From Phycisphaerae bacterium (GTDB lineage Bacteria > Planctomycetota > Phycisphaerae > Phycisphaerales > SM1A02): a DNA stretch of 64,000 nt. The notes under the pieces were generated by a model. It was given only the letters and a program-made list of their open reading frames with translations. It was not told where the DNA came from and did not search any database. The translations under genes and the position numbers were made by a program. The number at the start of each line of letters is the position of its first letter. Position 1 is the first letter of the stretch. Below, piece by piece: positions 16,439 through 27,383 of this stretch. The stretch covers positions 1 through 64,000 of the forward strand of contig PARI01000025.1 in the NCBI GenBank assembly GCA_002711415.1, read 5' to 3'.

Positions 16439-18126
16439 CCGGATTCGGAAGGGTCGCGTCGTTGCTGCTGGCTCTGCTCATTGCGCCCTCGGCTGCAATG
16501 GCCCAGCAGCAGACGTTCATCGAGCAGGTCGATCTGGAGCCCATCGAATCGCTGGCGGTCCAGGTCGACGGACGTCTCAAGTCGTTTGGATCCCATGCGA
16601 ACACCCTCATGTCGGTGGTCAGTGGATCCCGGAGCATCAACGAGCAGTCACCCTCGTTCACCTACATGGACATGATGCTGCGTCCGAATGCCTACGAGGA
16701 CGCCGATATCGTCTACGTCAAGAACAAGCTCGTTCGCAACAAGATCGCTGACGCGCTGTTGATGGAGGACCCGACTCTGGGTGATCGGATCGAGGCCTTC
16801 CGAGAGACCGGGCTGGTCTCCCCGATGCTGCTGAACAGGCCGTCGGCGCAGGAACTCGTCGAGGTCCTCTCCCGCGACCTGATCCGGACCGCCTCGAGCG
16901 TCGACGCGATCAACGGGGCGCTCATCGTGAGAGAGCCTGCCTTCCTCCTGGACCGGATGAGGATCGTTCCCCCGGCAGTCGAAGGTGAAACGGCACCCTG
17001 GCAGAGTCTTTCAGGAATCGCCCTGATGGATGCTTCGGCCTATGCCGATCATGATCCGTCCGACATCGCGGCGATCACGGAAACGTGGATGGGTCTGGTC
17101 GAGGCGTGGAACACGCATGACCCCGATGCGGTCAACCAATCGATGGCGACGCTTGCGACGCAGCTCCAGGAACTCTCGCCGGATGTCTATCCCGAGACCG
17201 GTCGCCTCAGCTGGGAGAGCTGGTATTTCAACCAGAAGAGCATGACCTGGGTGTGGCTGATCTACATGCTCAGCGTGATCCTGCTCCTGCTGGGCATGGT
17301 CTACCGATGGCCCCCGGCTCGATGGGCGGGCCTGGGAGTCTTCTTGATCGCCTTCGGGCTGCACACCTTCAGCATTCTCCTGAGGTGGTACATCGCGGAT
17401 CGATGGCCCAACTCGAACATGTTCGAGGCCGTGACGACCGCGGCATGGTTCGGCGGATGCCTCGCGATCGTGATGGAGCTGATCGCTCGACGCACCGCGA
17501 TGCATGGGATCTTCGCCCTTGGCAGTGCGATGGCCAGCATGGTGGCGTTGATGGCCGCCAGGTTCCTTCCGCTGTACCTGGATCCGAACATCTCCAACAA
17601 GATGCCCGTTCTGCACGACATCTGGCTCTACATCCACACCAACGTGATCATCTTCAGCTACTGCCTGATCTTCATGGCGGCCGTCAGTGCCGGGCTCTAC
17701 CTGCTGCGAAGGCTCTTTGGTGGATCGGCCGATTACGTCCGAGCAGGCGGAGCCGGGGCGCTCATTCTCAGGGGCACCACGTCCACGCCCGACGCCCTCG
17801 CCGACACGGACAACGCGTCACTCGGGCAGGTGCTTGATGGAGTGACCATGCTGTTGATGGAGCTCTCGTTCGTGCTGCTGTGGGCGGGGATCGCGATGGG
17901 GGCGATCTGGGCGGATCACTCCTGGGGAAGGCCCTGGGGCTGGGATCCCAAGGAGGTCTTCGCCCTCAACACGTTCATCATCTTCGCGTTGTTGATCCAC
18001 GTGCGGTTGAAGGTCCGGGACAAGGGGCTCTGGACGGCGTGGCTGGCGCTGCTGGGCTGCCTCGTGATGCTGTTCAACTGGATCGTCATCAACTTCGTGA
18101 TCACTGGTCTGCATTCCTACGCCTGA
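16435..18126 (+). CDS. ccsA: CcsA-like cytochrome c haem-handling protein
   Basis: A 563-residue protein. It has a signal peptide ending AMA before QQQTF and a periplasmic N-terminal domain of about 240 residues. The CcsA/CcmF-like membrane region follows, with multiple helices, a WPNSNMFEAV motif, conserved histidines (HTFSILL, HDIWLYIHTNVI) and the Trp-rich haem-binding WWD-type segment reading WGRPWGWDPKEV. It works with ResB to carry haem across the membrane and attach it to apocytochromes c. The ATG overlaps the resB stop by four bases. Its 3' end overlaps the convergent crcB gene by 26 bases. Confidence 0.92.
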   Translation: MTGFGRVASLLLALLIAPSAAMAQQQTFIEQVDLEPIESLAVQVDGRLKSFGSHANTLMSVVSGSRSINEQSPSFTYMDMMLRPNAYEDADIVYVKNKLVRNKIADALLMEDPTLGDRIEAFRETGLVSPMLLNRPSAQELVEVLSRDLIRTASSVDAINGALIVREPAFLLDRMRIVPPAVEGETAPWQSLSGIALMDASAYADHDPSDIAAITETWMGLVEAWNTHDPDAVNQSMATLATQLQELSPDVYPETGRLSWESWYFNQKSMTWVWLIYMLSVILLLLGMVYRWPPARWAGLGVFLIAFGLHTFSILLRWYIADRWPNSNMFEAVTTAAWFGGCLAIVMELIARRTAMHGIFALGSAMASMVALMAARFLPLYLDPNISNKMPVLHDIWLYIHTNVIIFSYCLIFMAAVSAGLYLLRRLFGGSADYVRAGGAGALILRGTTSTPDALADTDNASLGQVLDGVTMLLMELSFVLLWAGIAMGAIWADHSWGRPWGWDPKEVFALNTFIIFALLIHVRLKVRDKGLWTAWLALLGCLVMLFNWIVINFVITGLHSYA

Positions 18127-18628
18127 TCGTCAGCAACCTTCCCGTGTGAAGCCCAAGATAGGTGGCGATCAGTCCGAGCAGGACGGAGCCGGCGGTATTG
18201 AACATCGCTGTCCAGTGCTGGTCGTTCTGCTGCAGGTTCAGGCTCAGAAGGCTGAAGAGGCTGAAGGTCGTCATGCCTCCGAGGATCCCCGTGATCAGGA
18301 AGCCGGCGAGCAGTTGTGCCTGGAGTTCCTCCTTGAAGTCCCTGGCGACCGGTTGCGTCGGATCGCTCTCGGGCCACAGGCCATCAGCGATCAGGGGTTC
18401 GCATGCCTTCCACTTCTTCAGCTTGCTCAGCTGAGTCCTGTTGATCATGGATTCGAGCAGGAAGAATACGAGGCCGATCAGGAAGCAGCCTGAGATGTTC
18501 ACGATCATGATCGAGGCGTATTCCGGGAGTCCGATGATCCCGTGGAGCAGCCAGGCGCAGGCATGACGCGCCGTGGCCCCGATGCCGCCTCCCAACCCGA
18601 TTCCCATGCACAGGATGAAGAGTTTCAT
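18101..18628 (-). CDS. crcB: CrcB/FluC fluoride channel subunit, larger copy
   Basis: A 175-residue protein with four hydrophobic helices and the FluC signatures GGGIGATARHA, MIVNISGCFLIGL and GGMTTFSLFS. Between helices 2 and 3 it carries an insertion of about 45 charged residues that the other copy lacks. FluC channels export fluoride as dual-topology dimers; paired paralogous genes generally indicate an obligate heterodimer. Its ATG overlaps the stop of the upstream crcB copy (ATGA on the minus strand). The 3' end runs 26 bases into the convergent ccsA coding region. Confidence 0.9.
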   Translation of the reverse strand: MKLFILCMGIGLGGGIGATARHACAWLLHGIIGLPEYASIMIVNISGCFLIGLVFFLLESMINRTQLSKLKKWKACEPLIADGLWPESDPTQPVARDFKEELQAQLLAGFLITGILGGMTTFSLFSLLSLNLQQNDQHWTAMFNTAGSVLLGLIATYLGLHTGRLLTIRRRNADQ

Positions 18629-19062
18629 GGGAGCAGGCTCCCCCCGATGTACCACCCGGCCATCACCGCGATGTACGCGAGTACGGTCGTGCAGACGGCA
18701 TTCAGCAGGAACTGCCCCCTGTTGGTGATCAGGAGTAGGAAGTTGTCCAGGGAGAAGGTGCTGAACGTGGTGAAGGCTCCACAGAAACCGATCACGAAGA
18801 TCCCCAGTGCCTCGGAGATCGCCACTTCATCCTGGGTTATCCGCGCCGGTGAGAGGTGTTCGAGTCGCAGGTGACTGGCCTCCCCAGTAAGCCAGCAGGC
18901 GAGGAGTCCGATCATGAAGCTGCCGGTCACGTTGACGACCATGATCGCCAGCCACCCCGGCAGGGGAGTCCTGGTGGCGAAGAGCCCTTGCACGCCGAAT
19001 CGTGCCAGAGCTCCACCAGCTCCGCCGACCATGATGAACAGGGTGACTTGGATGATGTTCAT
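18625..19062 (-). CDS. crcB: CrcB/FluC fluoride channel subunit, smaller copy
   Basis: A 145-residue four-helix membrane protein with GGAGGALARFGVQ, MVVNVTGSFMIGL and FCGAFTTFSTFSLD, the classical fluoride-channel motifs including the TTFS segment. It is the first gene of the two-gene minus-strand crcB pair and is translationally coupled to the second. No good Shine-Dalgarno site is seen before its ATG; instead a 7-bp GC hairpin (19072-19093) ends about ten bases upstream. Confidence 0.93.
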   Translation of the reverse strand: MNIIQVTLFIMVGGAGGALARFGVQGLFATRTPLPGWLAIMVVNVTGSFMIGLLACWLTGEASHLRLEHLSPARITQDEVAISEALGIFVIGFCGAFTTFSTFSLDNFLLLITNRGQFLLNAVCTTVLAYIAVMAGWYIGGSLLP

Positions 19063-19093: not shown

Positions 19094-19459
19094 CTTCAGG
19101 CTCCCTGCTTGAGGAGTGAGAAAATATACAGGGATATCCCGGGCGCCCCTCCGTCCCCGTTGATTTGGCCGAGACCGGCACCTGTGAGCCTCTTCAAGCA
19201 GTCACCGGGAGGGGTGAGCCCTATCCGTGCTCACCGCGATCATCCAGGCGGCCGTGCATGGACCTGCTGGATGAGAATGGATTGTCTGGTTGGGCTCTCG
19301 CCCAGCCGCAGCGGGGTGAGGAATGTTTGATGGATTTGATTGGAACCAAGCCCCCGGATGGGGAGTACATCTGGCTTGTGGATTGTTCCCGGAACAGTCA
19401 TCAATACCCGCCCACTTCGCTCGTATAGTGATGTCGCCCCACCGCGCAAGGAGACAGCT
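19094..19459. other. Intergenic region between crcB pair and LPMO gene
   Basis: About 370 bases hold no credible gene. They contain short inverted repeats at 19213-19235 (GGTGAGC/GCTCACC, 9-base loop) and 19291-19304 (TGGGC/GCCCA), a perfect 13-base palindrome at 19384-19396, and a -10-like TATAGT at 19424-19429 without a good -35. The small open frames across it are unsupported by ribosome sites or recognisable sequence. Confidence 0.5.
19384..19396. promoter_or_regulatory. Operator-like palindrome upstream of LPMO gene
   Basis: TGTTCC-C-GGAACA is a perfect 6+1+6 inverted repeat placed 27 bases before a -10-like TATAGT (19424-19429). It therefore overlaps or abuts the -35 region of a promoter that lacks a recognisable -35 box, as expected for a regulator site. 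The binding protein is unknown. Confidence 0.35.
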
Positions 19460-20818
19460 TTGAACATAAAGAGCACCGCAGCTATTGCATGTACGATCGC
19501 ATGTGCGTCATTGGTCCACGGACATGGTTCGATGGCCAAGCCGATCAGCCGGGTCTACAGCGCGTTCCAGGAAGGACCTGAGAACCCGCAGTCGGCAGCC
19601 GTCCAAGCCATGATCCAGGTCAATGGGACCCAGCCGCTCTACGACTGGAACGAGGTCGTGAACTTCTTTCCGGGCGATCCGGAGTTCCAGGCCACGGTTC
19701 CATACTGGGAGTACATCCCGGACGGGCAACTGGCATCTGCTGGAAACAGCAAGTACGCCGGCCTGGACCTGGTTCGTGACGACTGGCCTTCGACCCAGGT
19801 GCAATCCGGTCCGTACGAGCTCGTCTGGTTCGCGACCACGCCCCATGACCCGAGCGTCTTCCGCGCGTTCATCACCACCGACGACTGGGATACGTCCCAG
19901 CCGCTGAACTGGGCGCAGATGGAGGAACTGGATCTTGGCCCGGTCACGCTTGACGGCCAGGACTACAAGTTCAACACGATCCTGCCGGCACGCAGCGGCA
20001 AGCATGTCATCTATGTGATCTGGCAGAGGCTTGACCCGGTCGGGGAGGGGTTCTACGCCGCGTGTGACGTTGATTTCGGCGCCGGGCCCGCCCCGGACTG
20101 CCCGGCGGATCTGAACGAGGACTCCCTGGTCGATGGAGTCGATCTGGGGATCATGCTCAGCTCATGGAACCAGCCGGGGGCTGATCTTGACGGCGATGGA
20201 AACACCGATGGAAGCGACATCGCACTCCTGCTTGCAGGATGGGGGCCGTGCGGCAACGACTGCAACGGGAACGGCCAGTCCGATTCGATCGACATCGAGC
20301 AGGGGGCTGCTGACTGCAACTTCAACGGCATCCCCGATGAATGCGAGGGCCTGTCCGATTGTGACGGTGACGGGATCTCGGATGCATGCGCGATCCTGGA
20401 TGGGCTTGCCGAGGACTGCAACATGGACCTGGTCCCCGATGGGTGCCAGTTGCAGGACCCGGCCAACGACGTCAACGAAGACGGAATTCTCGACGACTGC
20501 CAGATCGACGGCCTCAGTTGGTCGTTCCAGGTAGAGAACCAGTGGGAGGGCGGTTTCATCGGATCGATCACGATCTACAACGACTCCGGTTCTCACCTGC
20601 ACTGCTGGAACGCATCATTCGACGCGCCGTTCACGCTGGTCAACGCCTGGGATGCGATCCTGGTCGATCAGTCCGAGGGCCGAGTCTTCGTGATGCATGA
20701 GACCTACAACAAGATGGTCGATGACAATGACAGCGTGACGTTCGGGTTCGAAGCCTCCGGCCAACCCGGCCAGCCCTCCAACGTCTACGTCAACAACAGT
20801 CCTGCTGACCCTGAGTAG
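19460..20818 (+). CDS. Secreted AA10 lytic polysaccharide monooxygenase with dockerin, TSP3-like repeats and CBM2
   Basis: A 452-residue secreted enzyme. The TTG at 19460 is taken as start because AAGGAG lies six bases before it and it yields a 21-residue signal peptide ending VHG. The mature protein then begins with His22 (HGSMAKPISR), the N-terminal copper ligand of AA10 enzymes. The second histidine-brace ligand is His129 (FATTPHDP), and HVIYVIWQRLDP with AACDVDF completes the fold to about residue 206. A dockerin-like EF-hand pair (217-261), Asp/Asn/Cys-rich thrombospondin-3-like repeats (263-348) and a C-terminal family 2 carbohydrate-binding module (about 352-452) follow. It should oxidatively cleave chitin or cellulose outside the cell. 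Confidence 0.9.
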   Translation: MNIKSTAAIACTIACASLVHGHGSMAKPISRVYSAFQEGPENPQSAAVQAMIQVNGTQPLYDWNEVVNFFPGDPEFQATVPYWEYIPDGQLASAGNSKYAGLDLVRDDWPSTQVQSGPYELVWFATTPHDPSVFRAFITTDDWDTSQPLNWAQMEELDLGPVTLDGQDYKFNTILPARSGKHVIYVIWQRLDPVGEGFYAACDVDFGAGPAPDCPADLNEDSLVDGVDLGIMLSSWNQPGADLDGDGNTDGSDIALLLAGWGPCGNDCNGNGQSDSIDIEQGAADCNFNGIPDECEGLSDCDGDGISDACAILDGLAEDCNMDLVPDGCQLQDPANDVNEDGILDDCQIDGLSWSFQVENQWEGGFIGSITIYNDSGSHLHCWNASFDAPFTLVNAWDAILVDQSEGRVFVMHETYNKMVDDNDSVTFGFEASGQPGQPSNVYVNNSPADPE

Positions 20819-20897: not shown

Positions 20898-22082
20898 TCA
20901 GCCCGTCGGAATGGTCAGGAGTATGCCCTCGTTGTCGCTGTTGGTACGAGCCTCCTGGAGCCGGCTCAGGTACTGGATCAGCGTGAAGGTCGTCTTGGTG
21001 GTCCTGTCGTGCTTTTCGATCCAGTACCAGGATCCCTCGATCCTGCACTTGACGTATGCCGAATCGGGCTTGGTCTTCGAACAGTGGATCCTGAAGAAGT
21101 TGACCGGATGCAGCCAGGATCCGTCCTCCTTCCGGTCCTTCAGTTGCTTGAACACTTCGGGATAGTACTCGGCGAGATCCTCTGTCAACACGATTCCACC
21201 CGTGAGGTAGAGCATGATGCTCAGCATCGACCGCATCTCGATCACGATCTCCCTGCCGGCCAAACCCTTGGCCGGGTGCATGAGGATCGGGAAGACGTCG
21301 ACATCCGGGTCCAGGCCCAGCAGGGTCTTCAGGCTGCTGATCTTCCCGGTCAATTCCTCGTTGTTCTCCTGGGTCGTGAAGGCCAGGACGTAGTGGAGTT
21401 TCTGGTTGGCTGCAGGACCGGATGGCTTGCTACCTCCGGCGGCGGGAGTGGGTGGAGGAGGAGCCTGTTGAAGGTAGATTTCCAGTGCTCCCTCGGTCTC
21501 GAGCATTTCCATGAGCCAGGTCGCCTCCGCGAACTTCTCCAGCGTGCTTGGGACCGACTTGGCCGAGAGACCGACCGAGGTCGGCAGGTTCTCAAGCCCG
21601 TTGATGTTCTGGACCACCGCGGACATCAGCCTCTGAAGATCCCATCCGGACCTGCTGAGCAGGAAGATCTGGTAGTCATCGATCGGGGCGAGCATCCGCG
21701 TGGCGAATTCGGTTCCGGTCACCGGGCTGTAGGTGACCGTCGGTGTCTCCTGGATGTAGGCCCCGATCGAGAACGGGTACGTGTTGGGGCCGGACGTGAT
21801 CGAGCCGCCGGCCTCTCCGGTCGTGCGGATCTGGTACTGGCTCACGATCTGGGTCAGGTCCAGCAGTTCCGGCGTGCCACCAAGGCGAAGCCTCACGATG
21901 TTCATCAACAACTGCTGGGAACTGCTGGTCCTGATGGCCTCGGAATACTCGGACCGATCAGGGACGATCTTCGATGAACCGAAGGAACTGCACCCGCTCG
22001 TGAACATCATGATCGTGCCGAGCAGGGCAGCGATGAACCATCCGGCGCCGCCGGCCAAATTGAATCGGTCTTTCTCTTTCAT
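20898..22082 (-). CDS. Conserved lipoprotein of unknown function
   Basis: A roughly 394-residue protein with an N-terminal hydrophobic segment ending in the lipobox-like FTSGC, so it is probably membrane-anchored by a lipidated cysteine. The mature N terminus holds a conserved-looking stretch LLMNIVRLRLGGTPELLDL followed by VSQYQIRTTGE. This resembles a widespread family of uncharacterised lipoproteins with NIVRLRY-type motifs, but I cannot name a function. A Pro/Ala/Gly-rich linker sits mid-protein. ATG 22082 was chosen; a GTG three codons upstream is also possible. It is divergent from the flippase-like gene, with about 130 bases between them. Confidence 0.7.
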   Translation of the reverse strand: MKEKDRFNLAGGAGWFIAALLGTIMMFTSGCSSFGSSKIVPDRSEYSEAIRTSSSQQLLMNIVRLRLGGTPELLDLTQIVSQYQIRTTGEAGGSITSGPNTYPFSIGAYIQETPTVTYSPVTGTEFATRMLAPIDDYQIFLLSRSGWDLQRLMSAVVQNINGLENLPTSVGLSAKSVPSTLEKFAEATWLMEMLETEGALEIYLQQAPPPPTPAAGGSKPSGPAANQKLHYVLAFTTQENNEELTGKISSLKTLLGLDPDVDVFPILMHPAKGLAGREIVIEMRSMLSIMLYLTGGIVLTEDLAEYYPEVFKQLKDRKEDGSWLHPVNFFRIHCSKTKPDSAYVKCRIEGSWYWIEKHDRTTKTTFTLIQYLSRLQEARTNSDNEGILLTIPTG

Positions 22083-22215
22083 GACGGGCACTCACGTTGT
22101 AGCATATTGAATCGCAGTATCCGTGCAAATCATGCTTCAGGATACTGCTCGTGGGTTCTTCATTCATCCAGATCCGCGCTCATGGCCTGCCCGGCCGTCG
22201 CACCGGAGAACGTGA

Positions 22216-23913
22216 GTGATCGGTAAGAAGTACATGGGGCTGCTTGACTACGCCAACGGGGTGGACAGCTTTCGAGGTGTTCATTCCAGTGGCGTGCTCC
22301 ACTTCGGCCACCTGGACGACAAGGCCGTCGATCTGCTCGAGTGGATGGGGCCGCATGATTCACCTCTCACCCTCGAATCGATCGCAACCGGCATGGAGGT
22401 GCCGGAGGACCTGGTCATTCCTCACCTGGAGACCCTCAAGCACGAGGGCATGCTCGAGCAGACCGAGGACGGGTACAGGGTGCGGGACCACGTGAGGCAC
22501 AGGATCACCGAGCATGACGGGGCCCACAGGCGGCACCTGCTCGGCTCGATGCTCATCGGCGCGTTCAGCTTCTCCAGGTACAGGATCCTCGATTTCCTCC
22601 TGGTGATCACGGCGCAGGTGATGATCGCCAGGTGGGCCGGTTTCAAGAACTTCGGTGACGTCGTCGTCGTGGGATTGATCGCGACGATCATCGGGATCGC
22701 CGCCACGGGCGGGTTGTGCAACATCCTGACCGTGTTCCTGCCCGAGTACGAGCACTCAGATGACAGGAACAGGTTCCTCGGACTTTTCAGGTACGTGATG
22801 ACGCGTGTCGTCCTCAGCTCAATCATCGTCACGAGCCTGTGCATCGGCGTGACGCTGCTGCTTCCTCTCAGTGATCAGACGAAGTTCCTGATGGCCCTGG
22901 CCTTCTGCAAGATTCCGCTCTGGAACATCTGGGATGTGGCCCAACTGGTGTCGGCATCGGTCAAGCAGTGGACCAGAGCCTACATCGTCGAGTACATCAT
23001 TCAGCCCCTGGCATTGATTGGTCTGCTGGTGACGGCCCACTTCATGCTCGAGCAGATCACGGCGGAGCAGGTCATCGTCATCAAGCTCGTCACAGCGGCG
23101 ATCGCGATGAGCCTCCAGTTGCTGATCGCCTCTCATTTCATCTCTCGATACTGTAAAGGGGCGACACCCGAGTACGATGCCCGCGAGGGGAATGCCAAGG
23201 CCCGTCCACTGCTGTTCAACACGCTCGTGGCGATCCTACGCGGTTCCGTGCCCCTGCTGACACTCCAGGCGTTCGTTGGTGGGGTCGTTCCCGGGATGTT
23301 CGCTGCGGCTCGAAGTGCGGTCATGCCCGTCGGTATCGTTCGCGCCGCGTTCAAGAACTCCGGGACACCGGACATCTCGTGGCTCTTCGAGCGTGGGTTC
23401 AACGAGCGGCTGTCCTACCTTTGCAGGACGATGACCGGAGCCAATGCGATCGTGACCCTCATGATCGTTCCGCCGATAGCGATCTTCGGACACGAGATAC
23501 TCGCGCTCTACGGTAATGATTCCGATGCCACCTACGGACTGCTGCTGCTGCTGCTGTGCGGCTCGGTCATCCTGAGTCTGTTCGGCTATCCGACGGCGTT
23601 CCTGCGGAACACCGAGTTTCAGAAGAACGCGGTGATCGTCTCGCTGATCAGCTTGTTCACGATGCTGGCTCTCGTCTGGATCTTCGTCATTCCCAACCGC
23701 CATGATCCGACTGCAGCCTTGATCGGATGCGGGTTCGCGATCATGACCAACGCCGTGGTCATCCAGTCAGGTGCATGGTTCTTCATGATCCGTGACATCG
23801 GCTTCACGAGCTTCGTGACCGGAACGTTCATTCCGCTGCGGTACCGGTACCTCGAGCGATTCTTCAGGAGGTCGGTGGAGACGGGAGCGGTCGTCGAGGC
23901 GGTGTCCCGATAG
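22216..23913 (+). CDS. Winged-helix domain fused to a flippase-like multi-pass membrane protein
   Basis: A 565-residue protein with two parts. Residues about 30-105 look like a winged-helix module (LLEWMGPHDSPLTLESIATG, then PHLETLKHEGMLEQTEDGYRV). Residues about 110-540 contain some 12 hydrophobic helices resembling the MATE/Wzx/MurJ (MOP) oligosaccharide flippase superfamily. The substrate is unknown. The GTG start at 22216 has GGAG seven bases before it; ATG 22234 is an alternative. It ends five bases before the convergent phosphoesterase gene. The winged-helix/flippase combination is one I do not recall seeing named. Confidence 0.7.
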   Translation: MIGKKYMGLLDYANGVDSFRGVHSSGVLHFGHLDDKAVDLLEWMGPHDSPLTLESIATGMEVPEDLVIPHLETLKHEGMLEQTEDGYRVRDHVRHRITEHDGAHRRHLLGSMLIGAFSFSRYRILDFLLVITAQVMIARWAGFKNFGDVVVVGLIATIIGIAATGGLCNILTVFLPEYEHSDDRNRFLGLFRYVMTRVVLSSIIVTSLCIGVTLLLPLSDQTKFLMALAFCKIPLWNIWDVAQLVSASVKQWTRAYIVEYIIQPLALIGLLVTAHFMLEQITAEQVIVIKLVTAAIAMSLQLLIASHFISRYCKGATPEYDAREGNAKARPLLFNTLVAILRGSVPLLTLQAFVGGVVPGMFAAARSAVMPVGIVRAAFKNSGTPDISWLFERGFNERLSYLCRTMTGANAIVTLMIVPPIAIFGHEILALYGNDSDATYGLLLLLLCGSVILSLFGYPTAFLRNTEFQKNAVIVSLISLFTMLALVWIFVIPNRHDPTAALIGCGFAIMTNAVVIQSGAWFFMIRDIGFTSFVTGTFIPLRYRYLERFFRRSVETGAVVEAVSR

Positions 23914-23918
23914 TGGGT

Positions 23919-25859
23919 CTACGGCCTGTCCGATGACACCAGTTCAGGATCACCATGCAGCCGAGCGGCGTTGTCACGCCGCCCATCCAGATGGGTCAGC
24001 CTGCCGGAGACCTCGTCGAAATGCAGGAGTACGACGGCATCGTCGTCCGGCTGGTGCCTCCTGGCCGGCTCGAATGAATCCCCGGTGTACCTCGCTCCGA
24101 TGGAGAGCCTGACCTCGTCGATCTCGCCCTGGAAGAAGCTCGTCGGATGGCCCGCTGCATCAACATCCCCGCCGATCACCAGCGGCAGGCCGTTGAGCGT
24201 CCGGGTGCCGCTGCACGGGCTCGATGACACGAGGCGACCATCCACGTAAAGCCGCACCTCCGAGCCGTCATAGACCCCGGCGAGGTGATACCAGCGACCG
24301 GTTCGCAGACGGAGATCATCGGCCCGGGCGACGCGGTAGGCGCCATCGAGATGGACCTCAAACAGCGGAATGCCGTTGCTGACGAAGATGCAGTACTCGC
24401 TGGACTCGCTCTTGGCCACCAGGCCGACACGCTCGGAGAAGGCGTCGGCCTTGAGCCAGGCCTCCACGGTCAGCGGTCCCTGCGGCAGGTTCACCTGATC
24501 GCTGGGAACCACGATCGCATCGCCGACTCCATCCAGTCGAATCGAGGAGCTGCTCGGTTCAGGTCTCTTCATCCGGATCCGCATCGGGATGGGGGTCTCG
24601 ACCGTTGCCAGGGGATACCTCGCCTTCTCTCCGAGTGCATCCACGCGCATCTGCATCACGGGCCATCGGAACGACGCATCGATCCTTCCTGGAATCCGGG
24701 TCACCTTGAACGCGAGTTCCCTGCGATCCCCTGGTTGGAGGATCGCATGCCTGTGGTCGGGGGAGAAGAACCAGTTTGAATCCTCGCAGTCGGGGATGAG
24801 TTCGAATTCGGCCTTCATGCCGGAAGGATTGTGCACCTGGACCAGAAGTTCCGAATCGACGGCCCCATCCGGCTCCAGCACGATCTTCGAATCCATCACC
24901 GGCTTCTGCTGGGACAGCAGGCGGACCTGCTGGCTGACATGCCCGGTGATCTCCCTCGGATCGATGACTTCACCGACCGGAACCGTGGCGATCCAGACGC
25001 CGTCTGTGCGAACCGTGACGATGTTGAAGTGATGGAGAAAACCGGCCTCCGGGGATACGCTGGACTGTCCACCCCCGGTGGTCGCCAGGGCGAAGTATTC
25101 GATTCCATCGTCCGGGTCGTATCGCATCCTGTGAATGTGACCGGCGAACACGGCCGAGACGTTGCCGGCATCGACCAGCAGGTCGTGGACCTTGTTCCAG
25201 TCGTCACCGTAGTTGCCGCCCAGCCAGCGGGGGTGATGCAGGAAGCAGAAGACGTGATCGGCATCGCTCGCATCTGCGAGGGTCGCCCGGAGCCATTGGA
25301 ACTGCTCTGGGCTCATTCGTTGCGATTGCGGCCTGGAGAAGTTCCGGATCCCGGTCTCGGGATCGGCCTCATCCGAGTAGAGGATGATGAAACAGCTGTT
25401 CTTGTGCATGAAGCTGTACCACAGCGGGCCGAAATGCTCCTCGTAGTGACCTTCGTGCTCGTTCTCCGGGGCATCGGGTCCCCGCCAGTAGACATCGTGG
25501 TTGCCCGCGACCGGATACCACGGCATGGTCAGGCGGTCCATGACCCCGCGGAACTCGCGCATCTGGTTCATCCATGGTCCGCGCGTGTTGTATCCCTGAA
25601 TCATGTCCCCGACGGTCATGACCAGGTCGGGGTCGAACAACGCCATGTCATCGACGGCCTCCTCCAGCACCTTGATGCCCTCTGCGGGACCTCCGGTCCT
25701 GTCCCCGATGATCGCGAAGACGAATCCCTCCTCCTCCTGGGGTGAGTGAAGGGGGCGTGCCTCCCTGTTGGTCTGGACTTCCTCCTGGACCGGCTCGGTC
25801 GACTGTGATGCCGTGCAGAGCCAGCCGATCAGGAGGCCGGCGTGAAGGATGATGTTCAT
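23919..25859 (-). CDS. Exported calcineurin-like metallophosphoesterase with C-terminal LamG domain
   Basis: A 646-residue protein. A short hydrophobic N terminus is followed by a calcineurin-like phosphoesterase domain with the five metal motifs in order: GDRTGG (Asp53), GDMIQG (about 84), GNHD (119-122), FLHHPRW, and AGHIHRM. A middle beta-rich region follows. A LamG/concanavalin-A-like jelly roll occupies about residues 440-640 (LTVEAWLKAD, RWYHLAGVYDGSEVRLYVDGRL, GEIDEVRL). It is probably a secreted or periplasmic phosphoesterase acting on nucleotides, phospholipid or sugar phosphates. The frame stays open upstream to 26321, but that stretch overlaps sthA and is not homologous, so ATG 25859 is used. 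Confidence 0.85.
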   Translation of the reverse strand: MNIILHAGLLIGWLCTASQSTEPVQEEVQTNREARPLHSPQEEEGFVFAIIGDRTGGPAEGIKVLEEAVDDMALFDPDLVMTVGDMIQGYNTRGPWMNQMREFRGVMDRLTMPWYPVAGNHDVYWRGPDAPENEHEGHYEEHFGPLWYSFMHKNSCFIILYSDEADPETGIRNFSRPQSQRMSPEQFQWLRATLADASDADHVFCFLHHPRWLGGNYGDDWNKVHDLLVDAGNVSAVFAGHIHRMRYDPDDGIEYFALATTGGGQSSVSPEAGFLHHFNIVTVRTDGVWIATVPVGEVIDPREITGHVSQQVRLLSQQKPVMDSKIVLEPDGAVDSELLVQVHNPSGMKAEFELIPDCEDSNWFFSPDHRHAILQPGDRRELAFKVTRIPGRIDASFRWPVMQMRVDALGEKARYPLATVETPIPMRIRMKRPEPSSSSIRLDGVGDAIVVPSDQVNLPQGPLTVEAWLKADAFSERVGLVAKSESSEYCIFVSNGIPLFEVHLDGAYRVARADDLRLRTGRWYHLAGVYDGSEVRLYVDGRLVSSSPCSGTRTLNGLPLVIGGDVDAAGHPTSFFQGEIDEVRLSIGARYTGDSFEPARRHQPDDDAVVLLHFDEVSGRLTHLDGRRDNAARLHGDPELVSSDRP

Positions 25860-25889
25860 GGGTTCATTCTCGTGGAAGATGAGGTCGGC

Positions 25890-27383
25890 ATGCAAGGACA
25901 ACCATATTGGTATTCCGCGAAGACGGTAGAATCCAGCCCGGTCAACCAGAGTCCACATTGCCCGGAGATCGACTTGCCCAGAGAGCACTACGACCTGATC
26001 GTGATCGGCAGCGGTCCTGCGGGGCAGCGTGCGGCGGTCCAGGCGGCCAAGTTGGGCCGCTCGGTCGCGATCGTGGAACGAGATGCACGCGTCGGGGGCG
26101 TCTGCGTATTCACCGGTACCGTTCCGAGCAAGACCTTCCGCGAAGCAGTGGTCTCCAGCATGAGGGACATGCAGCCGGTTGGTGGAGGTGGTACCGGGTG
26201 TGGCCAACCGACCATGGACGACCTGAGGGCTCGCGTGGTCGATGTCATCGATGTCGAGGCCTCTGTGATCAGGGATCAACTGGAGCGCAACGGCGTGCGG
26301 ATCTACCGGGGTTCCGGACATCTCGTGGATGCCAATACCGTCGAGATCGACACGTCTGAAGGAGCCGTTCTATGTACCGCCGACTTCGTGCTCATAGCCA
26401 CAGGGACCACGGCGGCCCGGACCGAGTTCACCAAGCAGAATCCCGAGCGGATCGTCACGAGTGACGAGATCCTCCAGCTTCCGCACATACCCGGCTCCCT
26501 CGTGGTCATCGGAGCTGGTGTCATCGGCATCGAGTACGCGTCCATGTTCTGCGCCCTTGGCACCAGGGTGACCGTCATCGACAGGAGGAACAAGCCGCTC
26601 GAGTTCGTCGATTGCCAGATCACGGGTGAACTGATTCACCAGATGGAATCATGCGGTGCCGATTTCATGCTCGAGGAATCGGTCGACCATGTCACCGCCA
26701 TCGGTGACGGCGTCGAGGTCGTCCTGGCATCCGGTCGGAGCGTTCGGGCCGAGATCGCCCTCTTCTCGATCGGTCGAGTCGCCCAGACCGCGTCGCTCGG
26801 CCTGGACTCCATCGGCATCCGGACGGACGACCGTGGGCGGATCATCGTCGACGAGGAGTATCGTTCCAGCAGGCCCAACATCTATGCAGCCGGTGACGTG
26901 ATCGGGTTCCCATCGCTGGCGGCGACCAGCTCGGAGCAGGGGCGGATCGCCGTCCGCAACATGTTCGACATGCCGACGGTGTGCATGGGCAGGGACTTTC
27001 CCTACGGCATCTATTCGATCCCAGAGATCTCCATGGTCGGCTCGACCCAGGAACAGCTCGAGCAGGAGGGGGTGGAGTACGAGATCGGGACGGCCCGATA
27101 CCGCGAGATCGTCAGGGGTCAGATCCTCGGGGACCACACCGGCCTGTTCAAGATGATCTTCAATGCCCAGGACAAGTCCCTTCTCGGGGTCCATTGCATC
27201 GGTACTCAGGCGACCGAGCTCGTTCACATCGGCCAGGCGGTCCTGAAGCTGGGTGGAGGACTCGAGTACTTCCTCGAGACCGTTTTCAACTACCCCACGC
27301 TGGCCGAGTGCTACAAGGTCGCGGCGCTTGATGCGGCCAACAGGCTGGCCTCACGAGGGCTGGAGTCGAGTCATCACCACTGA
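25890..27383 (+). CDS. sthA: Soluble pyridine nucleotide transhydrogenase (SthA-like flavoprotein)
   Basis: A 497-residue FAD-dependent oxidoreductase. It has the N-terminal FAD motif (YDLIVIGSGPAGQRAAVQAA), the segment GGVCVFTGTVPSKTFREA, the NAD motif (LVVIGAGVIGIEYASMF), the FAD-binding IYAAGDVIGFPSLAATS, and a C-terminal dimerisation domain with FNYPTLAECYK. The redox-active cysteine pair of dihydrolipoamide dehydrogenases is reduced to one Cys because the second position is Thr, as in SthA. That supports direct NADPH/NAD+ hydride exchange instead of disulfide chemistry. The ATG at 25890 has GAGG upstream; the divergent phosphoesterase starts only 30 bases away. Confidence 0.9.
   Translation: MQGQPYWYSAKTVESSPVNQSPHCPEIDLPREHYDLIVIGSGPAGQRAAVQAAKLGRSVAIVERDARVGGVCVFTGTVPSKTFREAVVSSMRDMQPVGGGGTGCGQPTMDDLRARVVDVIDVEASVIRDQLERNGVRIYRGSGHLVDANTVEIDTSEGAVLCTADFVLIATGTTAARTEFTKQNPERIVTSDEILQLPHIPGSLVVIGAGVIGIEYASMFCALGTRVTVIDRRNKPLEFVDCQITGELIHQMESCGADFMLEESVDHVTAIGDGVEVVLASGRSVRAEIALFSIGRVAQTASLGLDSIGIRTDDRGRIIVDEEYRSSRPNIYAAGDVIGFPSLAATSSEQGRIAVRNMFDMPTVCMGRDFPYGIYSIPEISMVGSTQEQLEQEGVEYEIGTARYREIVRGQILGDHTGLFKMIFNAQDKSLLGVHCIGTQATELVHIGQAVLKLGGGLEYFLETVFNYPTLAECYKVAALDAANRLASRGLESSHHH

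Follow-up and report, generated by a model that had tools for sequence, protein, structure and literature searches.

The window analysed here, a stretch of 64,000 nucleotides from a Phycisphaerae bacterium, contains a gene (22216-23913, + strand) in which a winged helix of the IclR type is fused in frame to a membrane transporter of the Wzx/MOP fold class. The component parts are of known kinds; what appears to be new is their combination, found so far in one genome. The winged helix has lost the usual pattern of DNA-contact residues. We propose that the gene product would be a divergent Wzx-type flippase of the MOP superfamily that gained an IclR-like winged helix, and that this module no longer binds DNA and serves in docking or gating at the cytoplasmic side. 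Taken jointly, these statements seem to us evenly balanced between right and wrong.

The fusion was recognized in the earlier note, and the reading frame bears it out: 22216 to 23913 is one uninterrupted frame of 565 amino acids. It starts with GTG at 22216, and a probable ribosome-binding site, GGAGA (22205-22209, + strand), was read in the sequence 6 nt upstream. Since the note had made its claim depend on the start codon, it is relevant that even an alternative in-frame ATG at 22234, which would remove just 6 residues, lies upstream of the winged-helix module, as does the GTG. Across the two blocks spanning the module, GC3 amounts to 0.75 and 0.93, the same range (0.75-0.93) as elsewhere in the gene, and both the module and what follows it have the codon-position composition of coding sequence. 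A wrongly assigned start, or two genes erroneously joined in assembly, might be suspected in a draft genome of 45 contigs when no second genome carries the fusion. However, the module is situated between a good ribosome-binding site and the first membrane helix (TM1) with no intervening stop and high GC3 throughout, a Pfam domain occurs in the same frame, and the gene is located 22 kb from the nearer end of an 81.9-kb contig. We therefore consider such an artefact very improbable.

To the N-terminal module, Pfam assigned the HTH_IclR family at residues 35-83 (22318-22464, + strand), with an E value of 1.2e-4 and a score of 22.2 bits, barely above the cut-off of 22; when residues 1-110 were searched alone, the match improved to 9e-6 and 25.8 bits. 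With the whole protein as query and E up to 1, Pfam reported just four families, HTH_IclR, HTH_Cmi2_C, Rrf2, and HTH_69, with no IclR_C effector domain among them. No NCBIfam match was obtained for the whole protein. For an independent control, an HMM was built from 30 IclR-type loci, excluding the query; these loci were the ones returned by a class-wide PF09339 search, which gave a match in 93 of 150 genomes. Residues 1-112 scored 28.8 bits against this HMM, compared with 9.9 bits for the best of 20,000 shuffled sequences (counting the real sequence, 13,831 out of 20,001 received a reported score). When the same HMM was run against the 577 stop-to-stop frames of at least 60 residues in the window, the flippase-like gene alone fell below E 1 (3.7e-7; the next frame, 1.5). 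The strongest N-terminal match outside the own genome, in the family and class searches, was a complete IclR regulator (L108, E 0.0013), which fits an origin of the module from the IclR-type domain class. Searching PDB sequences with residues 1-110 yielded at best a viral protein (4djb, E 0.077), dismissed as a chance match, followed by an ArsR protein (8qkf) at E 0.57.

Structure prediction followed the winged-helix assignment in part. The AlphaFold2 model of residues 1-120 alone, poor at a pLDDT of 46.8, has the beta-alpha-alpha-alpha-beta-beta-alpha order of a winged helix, plus a short strand at residues 61-63; its residues 86-89 form a strand and 91-99 a helix, where the full-length model has a single helix from 84 to 141. 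In the full-length model, the module is of low confidence and consists of helices only, with no strands. Foldseek with the N-terminal model, a query of pLDDT 46.8, returned none of its 1011 matches at E 0.001 or below. VIA search with the same low-pLDDT query placed an IclR protein in the top row at a weak Z of 3.6, and its rows, all weak matches, were mostly winged-helix regulators with ribosomal proteins and methyltransferases mixed in. The earlier note had drawn the winged helix over residues 1-105. Its type stands, by the Pfam match and the shuffle control, and its extent is revised to about residues 35-100; residues 1-34 (22216-22317, + strand) form an N-terminal arm without an assigned fold, having no Pfam match and, in the two models, pLDDT values that are mostly under 50.

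We then compared the module with IclR-family regulators, with which it shares the winged-helix core of residues 35-83. In contrast to these regulators, it lacks IclR_C, is joined to a membrane transporter, and carries a core net charge of -9, where the 30 controls, proteins with presumed DNA binding, range from -5 to +3 with a mean of -0.3. The recognition-helix segment (residues 60-71; 22393-22428, + strand; PEDLVIPHLETL) has a charge of -3, compared with -1 to +3 in the controls, and its usual DNA-contact residues are replaced. By alignment columns, Pro in the query stands at a segment position occupied by Arg in 23/30 controls and by Lys in 1/30. At the start of the segment, Glu occupies the second position (Lys in 8/30, Pro in 7/30, and Arg in 5/30 controls) and Asp the third (Ser in 14/30, Asn in 6/30), followed by Leu at the fourth (Thr in 12/30, Ser in 9/30). 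At the eighth position, where all 30 controls have a hydrophobic residue, the query has His, and so do L066 and L068, which are the two remaining PF09339 matches of the own genome. Compared with L066 (PQSTVSRHLKPL), whose segment has a charge of +2, the query lacks the same polar and basic positions. L068, whose PF09339 match falls short of the Pfam cut-off, is likewise without the Arg, and its segment charge is -1; losing the pattern is therefore not in itself conclusive for lost DNA binding. On the basis of the acidic charge and the loss of recognition-helix residues, both read from sequence, DNA binding through the usual winged-helix face is unlikely. The His-Leu pair of the query recurs in L066, L068, and the weak ArsR-family match 8qkf, unlike in the 30 controls; the module may therefore resemble ArsR-like winged helices more closely than true IclR ones, and IclR is perhaps not the best class for comparison.

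These observations bear on the proposal in the earlier note that the protein might be a membrane-tethered DNA regulator. CadC and ToxR carry an OmpR-type winged helix before a single transmembrane helix. In a one-component regulator of that kind, the flippase-like part would act as sensor and the winged helix would bind a promoter; the IclR-type fold and its placement N-terminal to TM1, the arrangement of CadC and ToxR, would suit this. The window protein differs, however, in having a 12-helix transporter in place of one helix with a periplasmic sensor. Its Pfam match is to HTH_IclR, and the OmpR-type domain is not among the listed families. With a core charge of -9 and the Arg/Lys/Ser recognition-helix pattern lost, we regard a tethered regulator as distinctly improbable. 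Once it is set aside, a docking domain, the other role suggested in the note, becomes the better of the two, at the level of an inferred role.

The winged helix leads into the membrane part through residues 84-112 (22465-22551, + strand), which comprise the end of the wing and an Arg/His-rich juxtamembrane stretch. The long helix at residues 84-141 of the full-length model, computed with a 36-sequence alignment, would connect the end of the module to TM1, and block means of pLDDT rise from 61 through 74 to 83 across residues 81-110. Overall pLDDT of this model is 83.4, with values of at least 90 at 354 of 565 residues and mostly above 90 in the membrane part. By our grouping of the listed helices, residues 113-528 (22552-23799, + strand) form 12 membrane helices, followed by a basic C-terminal tail of low confidence (residues 529-565; 23800-23910, + strand). 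Foldseek matched the full-length model to MATE (E 3.9e-8, TM-score by target 0.66), MurJ (E 5.7e-8, 0.57), and WzxE (E 1.7e-7, 0.75). A PDB search with the 36-sequence profile found TacF and BH2163 (DinF).

Sequence comparison agrees with this fold. The membrane part aligns over nearly its full length with standalone flippases, the nearest of which (L002) shares 24% identity over residues 103-491 (E 2e-15) and itself matches PF01943 (Polysacc_synt) at E 1e-12. Residues 101-565 matched no Pfam family (E up to 1), neither PF01943 nor PF13440 nor PF01554, and the gene is not among the matches of a PF01943 search of its own genome. We attribute the missing match to the limited reach of the curated profiles, given that they do recognize relatives. 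In a phylogenetic tree, the membrane part occupies a branch of 3.02 changes per column, and no supported set includes it. With the flippases of PF01943 and PF13440, WzxE for example, it has in common 12 helices and the MOP fold; what sets it apart is the added N-terminal winged helix, its own escape from Pfam detection, and the missing glycan cluster alongside. Genes for Wzx-type flippases usually lie in a glycan-synthesis cluster, which is not a requirement. Neither glycan-synthesis genes nor a sulfotransferase were found among the neighbours tested around the flippase-like gene (six kinds, one without identity). PF13469/PF00685 sulfotransferase domains are encoded just after two flippase relatives (L002 and L099) and adjoining a third (L009), which hints that some of the relatives perhaps handle sulfated glycans.

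Of the Wzx/MurJ type with about 12 helices assumed in the earlier note, the Wzx/MOP type and the 12 helices in the model hold, and MurJ in particular is not supported. MurJ has the same MOP fold, with 14 helices, and the mycobacterial MurJ carries a regulatory domain. On that precedent, and in view of the Foldseek matches to MurJ, the gene might be taken for the lipid II flippase of the organism equipped with a regulatory domain. A PF03023 search of the genome (E up to 0.01), however, listed only a separate MurJ gene (G000:C31, E 5.1e-97) and not the window gene, and the model has 12 helices instead of 14; this identity is accordingly very hard to credit. Because MurJ is encoded elsewhere, the window gene probably serves as an accessory transporter. 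Four other genes of the genome (L062-L065) were identified in the PF01943 search, three above the cut-off and L065 below it; none of them, by eye, has a similar module.

Whether the same fusion occurs in other genomes was addressed by searches with both the full protein and its N-terminal part. Full-protein searches (E up to 0.001) covered four overlapping sets, consisting of 61 relatives, 397 class, 392 phylum, and 301 order genomes, and gave matches in 4, 10, 15, and 12 genomes, respectively, the own genome counted. The own gene aside, no listed match starts before residue 83. N-terminal searches of 181 family and 327 class genomes (E up to 0.01) returned the own gene together with 6 weak matches in the family and 3 in the class, at E 0.0013-0.0095. 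By eye, three of these (L012, L014, and L016) resemble GspE-type ATPases with an FHA domain. L108 is the complete IclR regulator and L110 an Rrf2 regulator, L109 is located on the reverse strand of an apparent glycyl-tRNA synthetase (by eye), and in L013, L015, and L017 the matching frames seem to have arisen by chance, two of the three being broken by stops. Flippase matches occurred in 56 of the 181 family genomes, and 30 loci were retrieved. Upstream stretches of L042, L057, and L058 contain no winged helix by Pfam (E up to 0.1) and appear by eye to be untranslated upstream sequence; those of L037, L038, and L059 were read by eye only, and the genomes of flippase matches that were not retrieved were covered by the N-terminal search. 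In L099, whose frame also has 565 amino acids, the extra stretch precedes the likely ATG start (by eye). No relative was found on viral contigs or plasmids, nor in two GTDB genome scans, each using six exact 8-residue peptides, a weak probe by which very near genomes may have been left out. Hence, a second winged helix-flippase fusion, which the note had advised looking for in other planctomycetes, is absent from the sampled family, order, class, and phylum genomes at the E cut-offs used. In the titles and opening lines of abstracts retrieved from the open-access literature, no such fusion is mentioned, although the arrangement may still have been published. We conclude that the fusion is real and probably lineage-specific.

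Restriction to a single genome raises the question of whether the module has any function. In the main rival to our proposal, a piece of a regulator gene was recently joined in frame to a flippase gene and tolerated, and its DNA-binding residues have been decaying with no new role. The single genome, the long branch of the membrane part, the vanished DNA-contact residues, and the lack of related neighbour genes are all in keeping with such a neutral fusion. The module, however, still clearly scores as a winged helix by Pfam and in the shuffle control, its frame has no stop and retains a high GC3, and its change is in one direction, strongly acidic, and not random. We judge a neutral fusion to be unlikely on balance, and a tethered DNA regulator to be less likely than that.

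For a functional fusion, the following mechanism may be envisaged. The flippase would move a lipid-linked glycan or a similar amphiphile; its N-terminus would have acquired an IclR-like winged helix, which gave up DNA binding. MOP flippases have a cytoplasmic N-terminus, and this family topology, together with the Arg/His-rich stretch before TM1, leads us to place the module in the cytoplasm. From that side, the acidic module, joined to TM1 through the Arg/His-rich stretch, would act in one of two ways: it might recruit the enzyme responsible for synthesis of the lipid-linked substrate, or it might restrain the inward entrance at its TM1 side, pending release by a partner or ligand. FeoC is a winged helix that works with the transporter FeoB, and offers an analogy, though only that, for a winged helix that serves a transporter rather than acting as a plain DNA regulator; the window protein belongs to another transporter class. 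In TacF, TM1 and TM8 flank the inward entrance (PMC13385700), and a domain joined to TM1 would thus be well placed to gate it. We tentatively suggest, as a possibility that we think somewhat doubtful, a flippase with a built-in cytoplasmic switch, in which the acidic former DNA-binding winged helix docks the substrate-making enzyme or gates the TM1-side entrance. Counting against the favoured reading of a flippase with a docking or gating module are the single genome, the low confidence of the module models, the missing Pfam match and long branch of the membrane part, and the lack of glycan genes.

To our knowledge, few Wzx-type flippases carry extra domains, and how the synthesis of lipid-linked sugars in the cytoplasm is coupled to flipping is poorly understood. 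With its winged helix naturally joined to TM1, the window protein allows possible gating or recruitment by an attached domain to be tested within one molecule. If the proposal is true, a Wzx-type transporter would here carry, covalently bound, a regulatory domain built from a transcription-factor fold; the significance is tempered by there being one case, with a putative substrate.

The flippase-like gene sits between two genes on the opposite strand. The divergent one (20898-22091, - strand) encodes 397 amino acids with a lipoprotein-like N-terminus by eye and has no Pfam match; the convergent one (23919-26321, - strand) encodes a metallophosphatase joined to a laminin-G-like domain. Further neighbours include cytochrome-c assembly genes and a pyridine-nucleotide oxidoreductase. 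A pair of CrcB-family genes, adjacent and overlapping (18101-18655 and 18625-19062, - strand), was also observed. Between this pair and the divergent gene lies a gene (19340-20818, + strand) for an LPMO_10 lytic polysaccharide monooxygenase (E 1.4e-38) with a CBM_2 cellulose-binding domain, whose listed TTG start is, by eye, probably too early.
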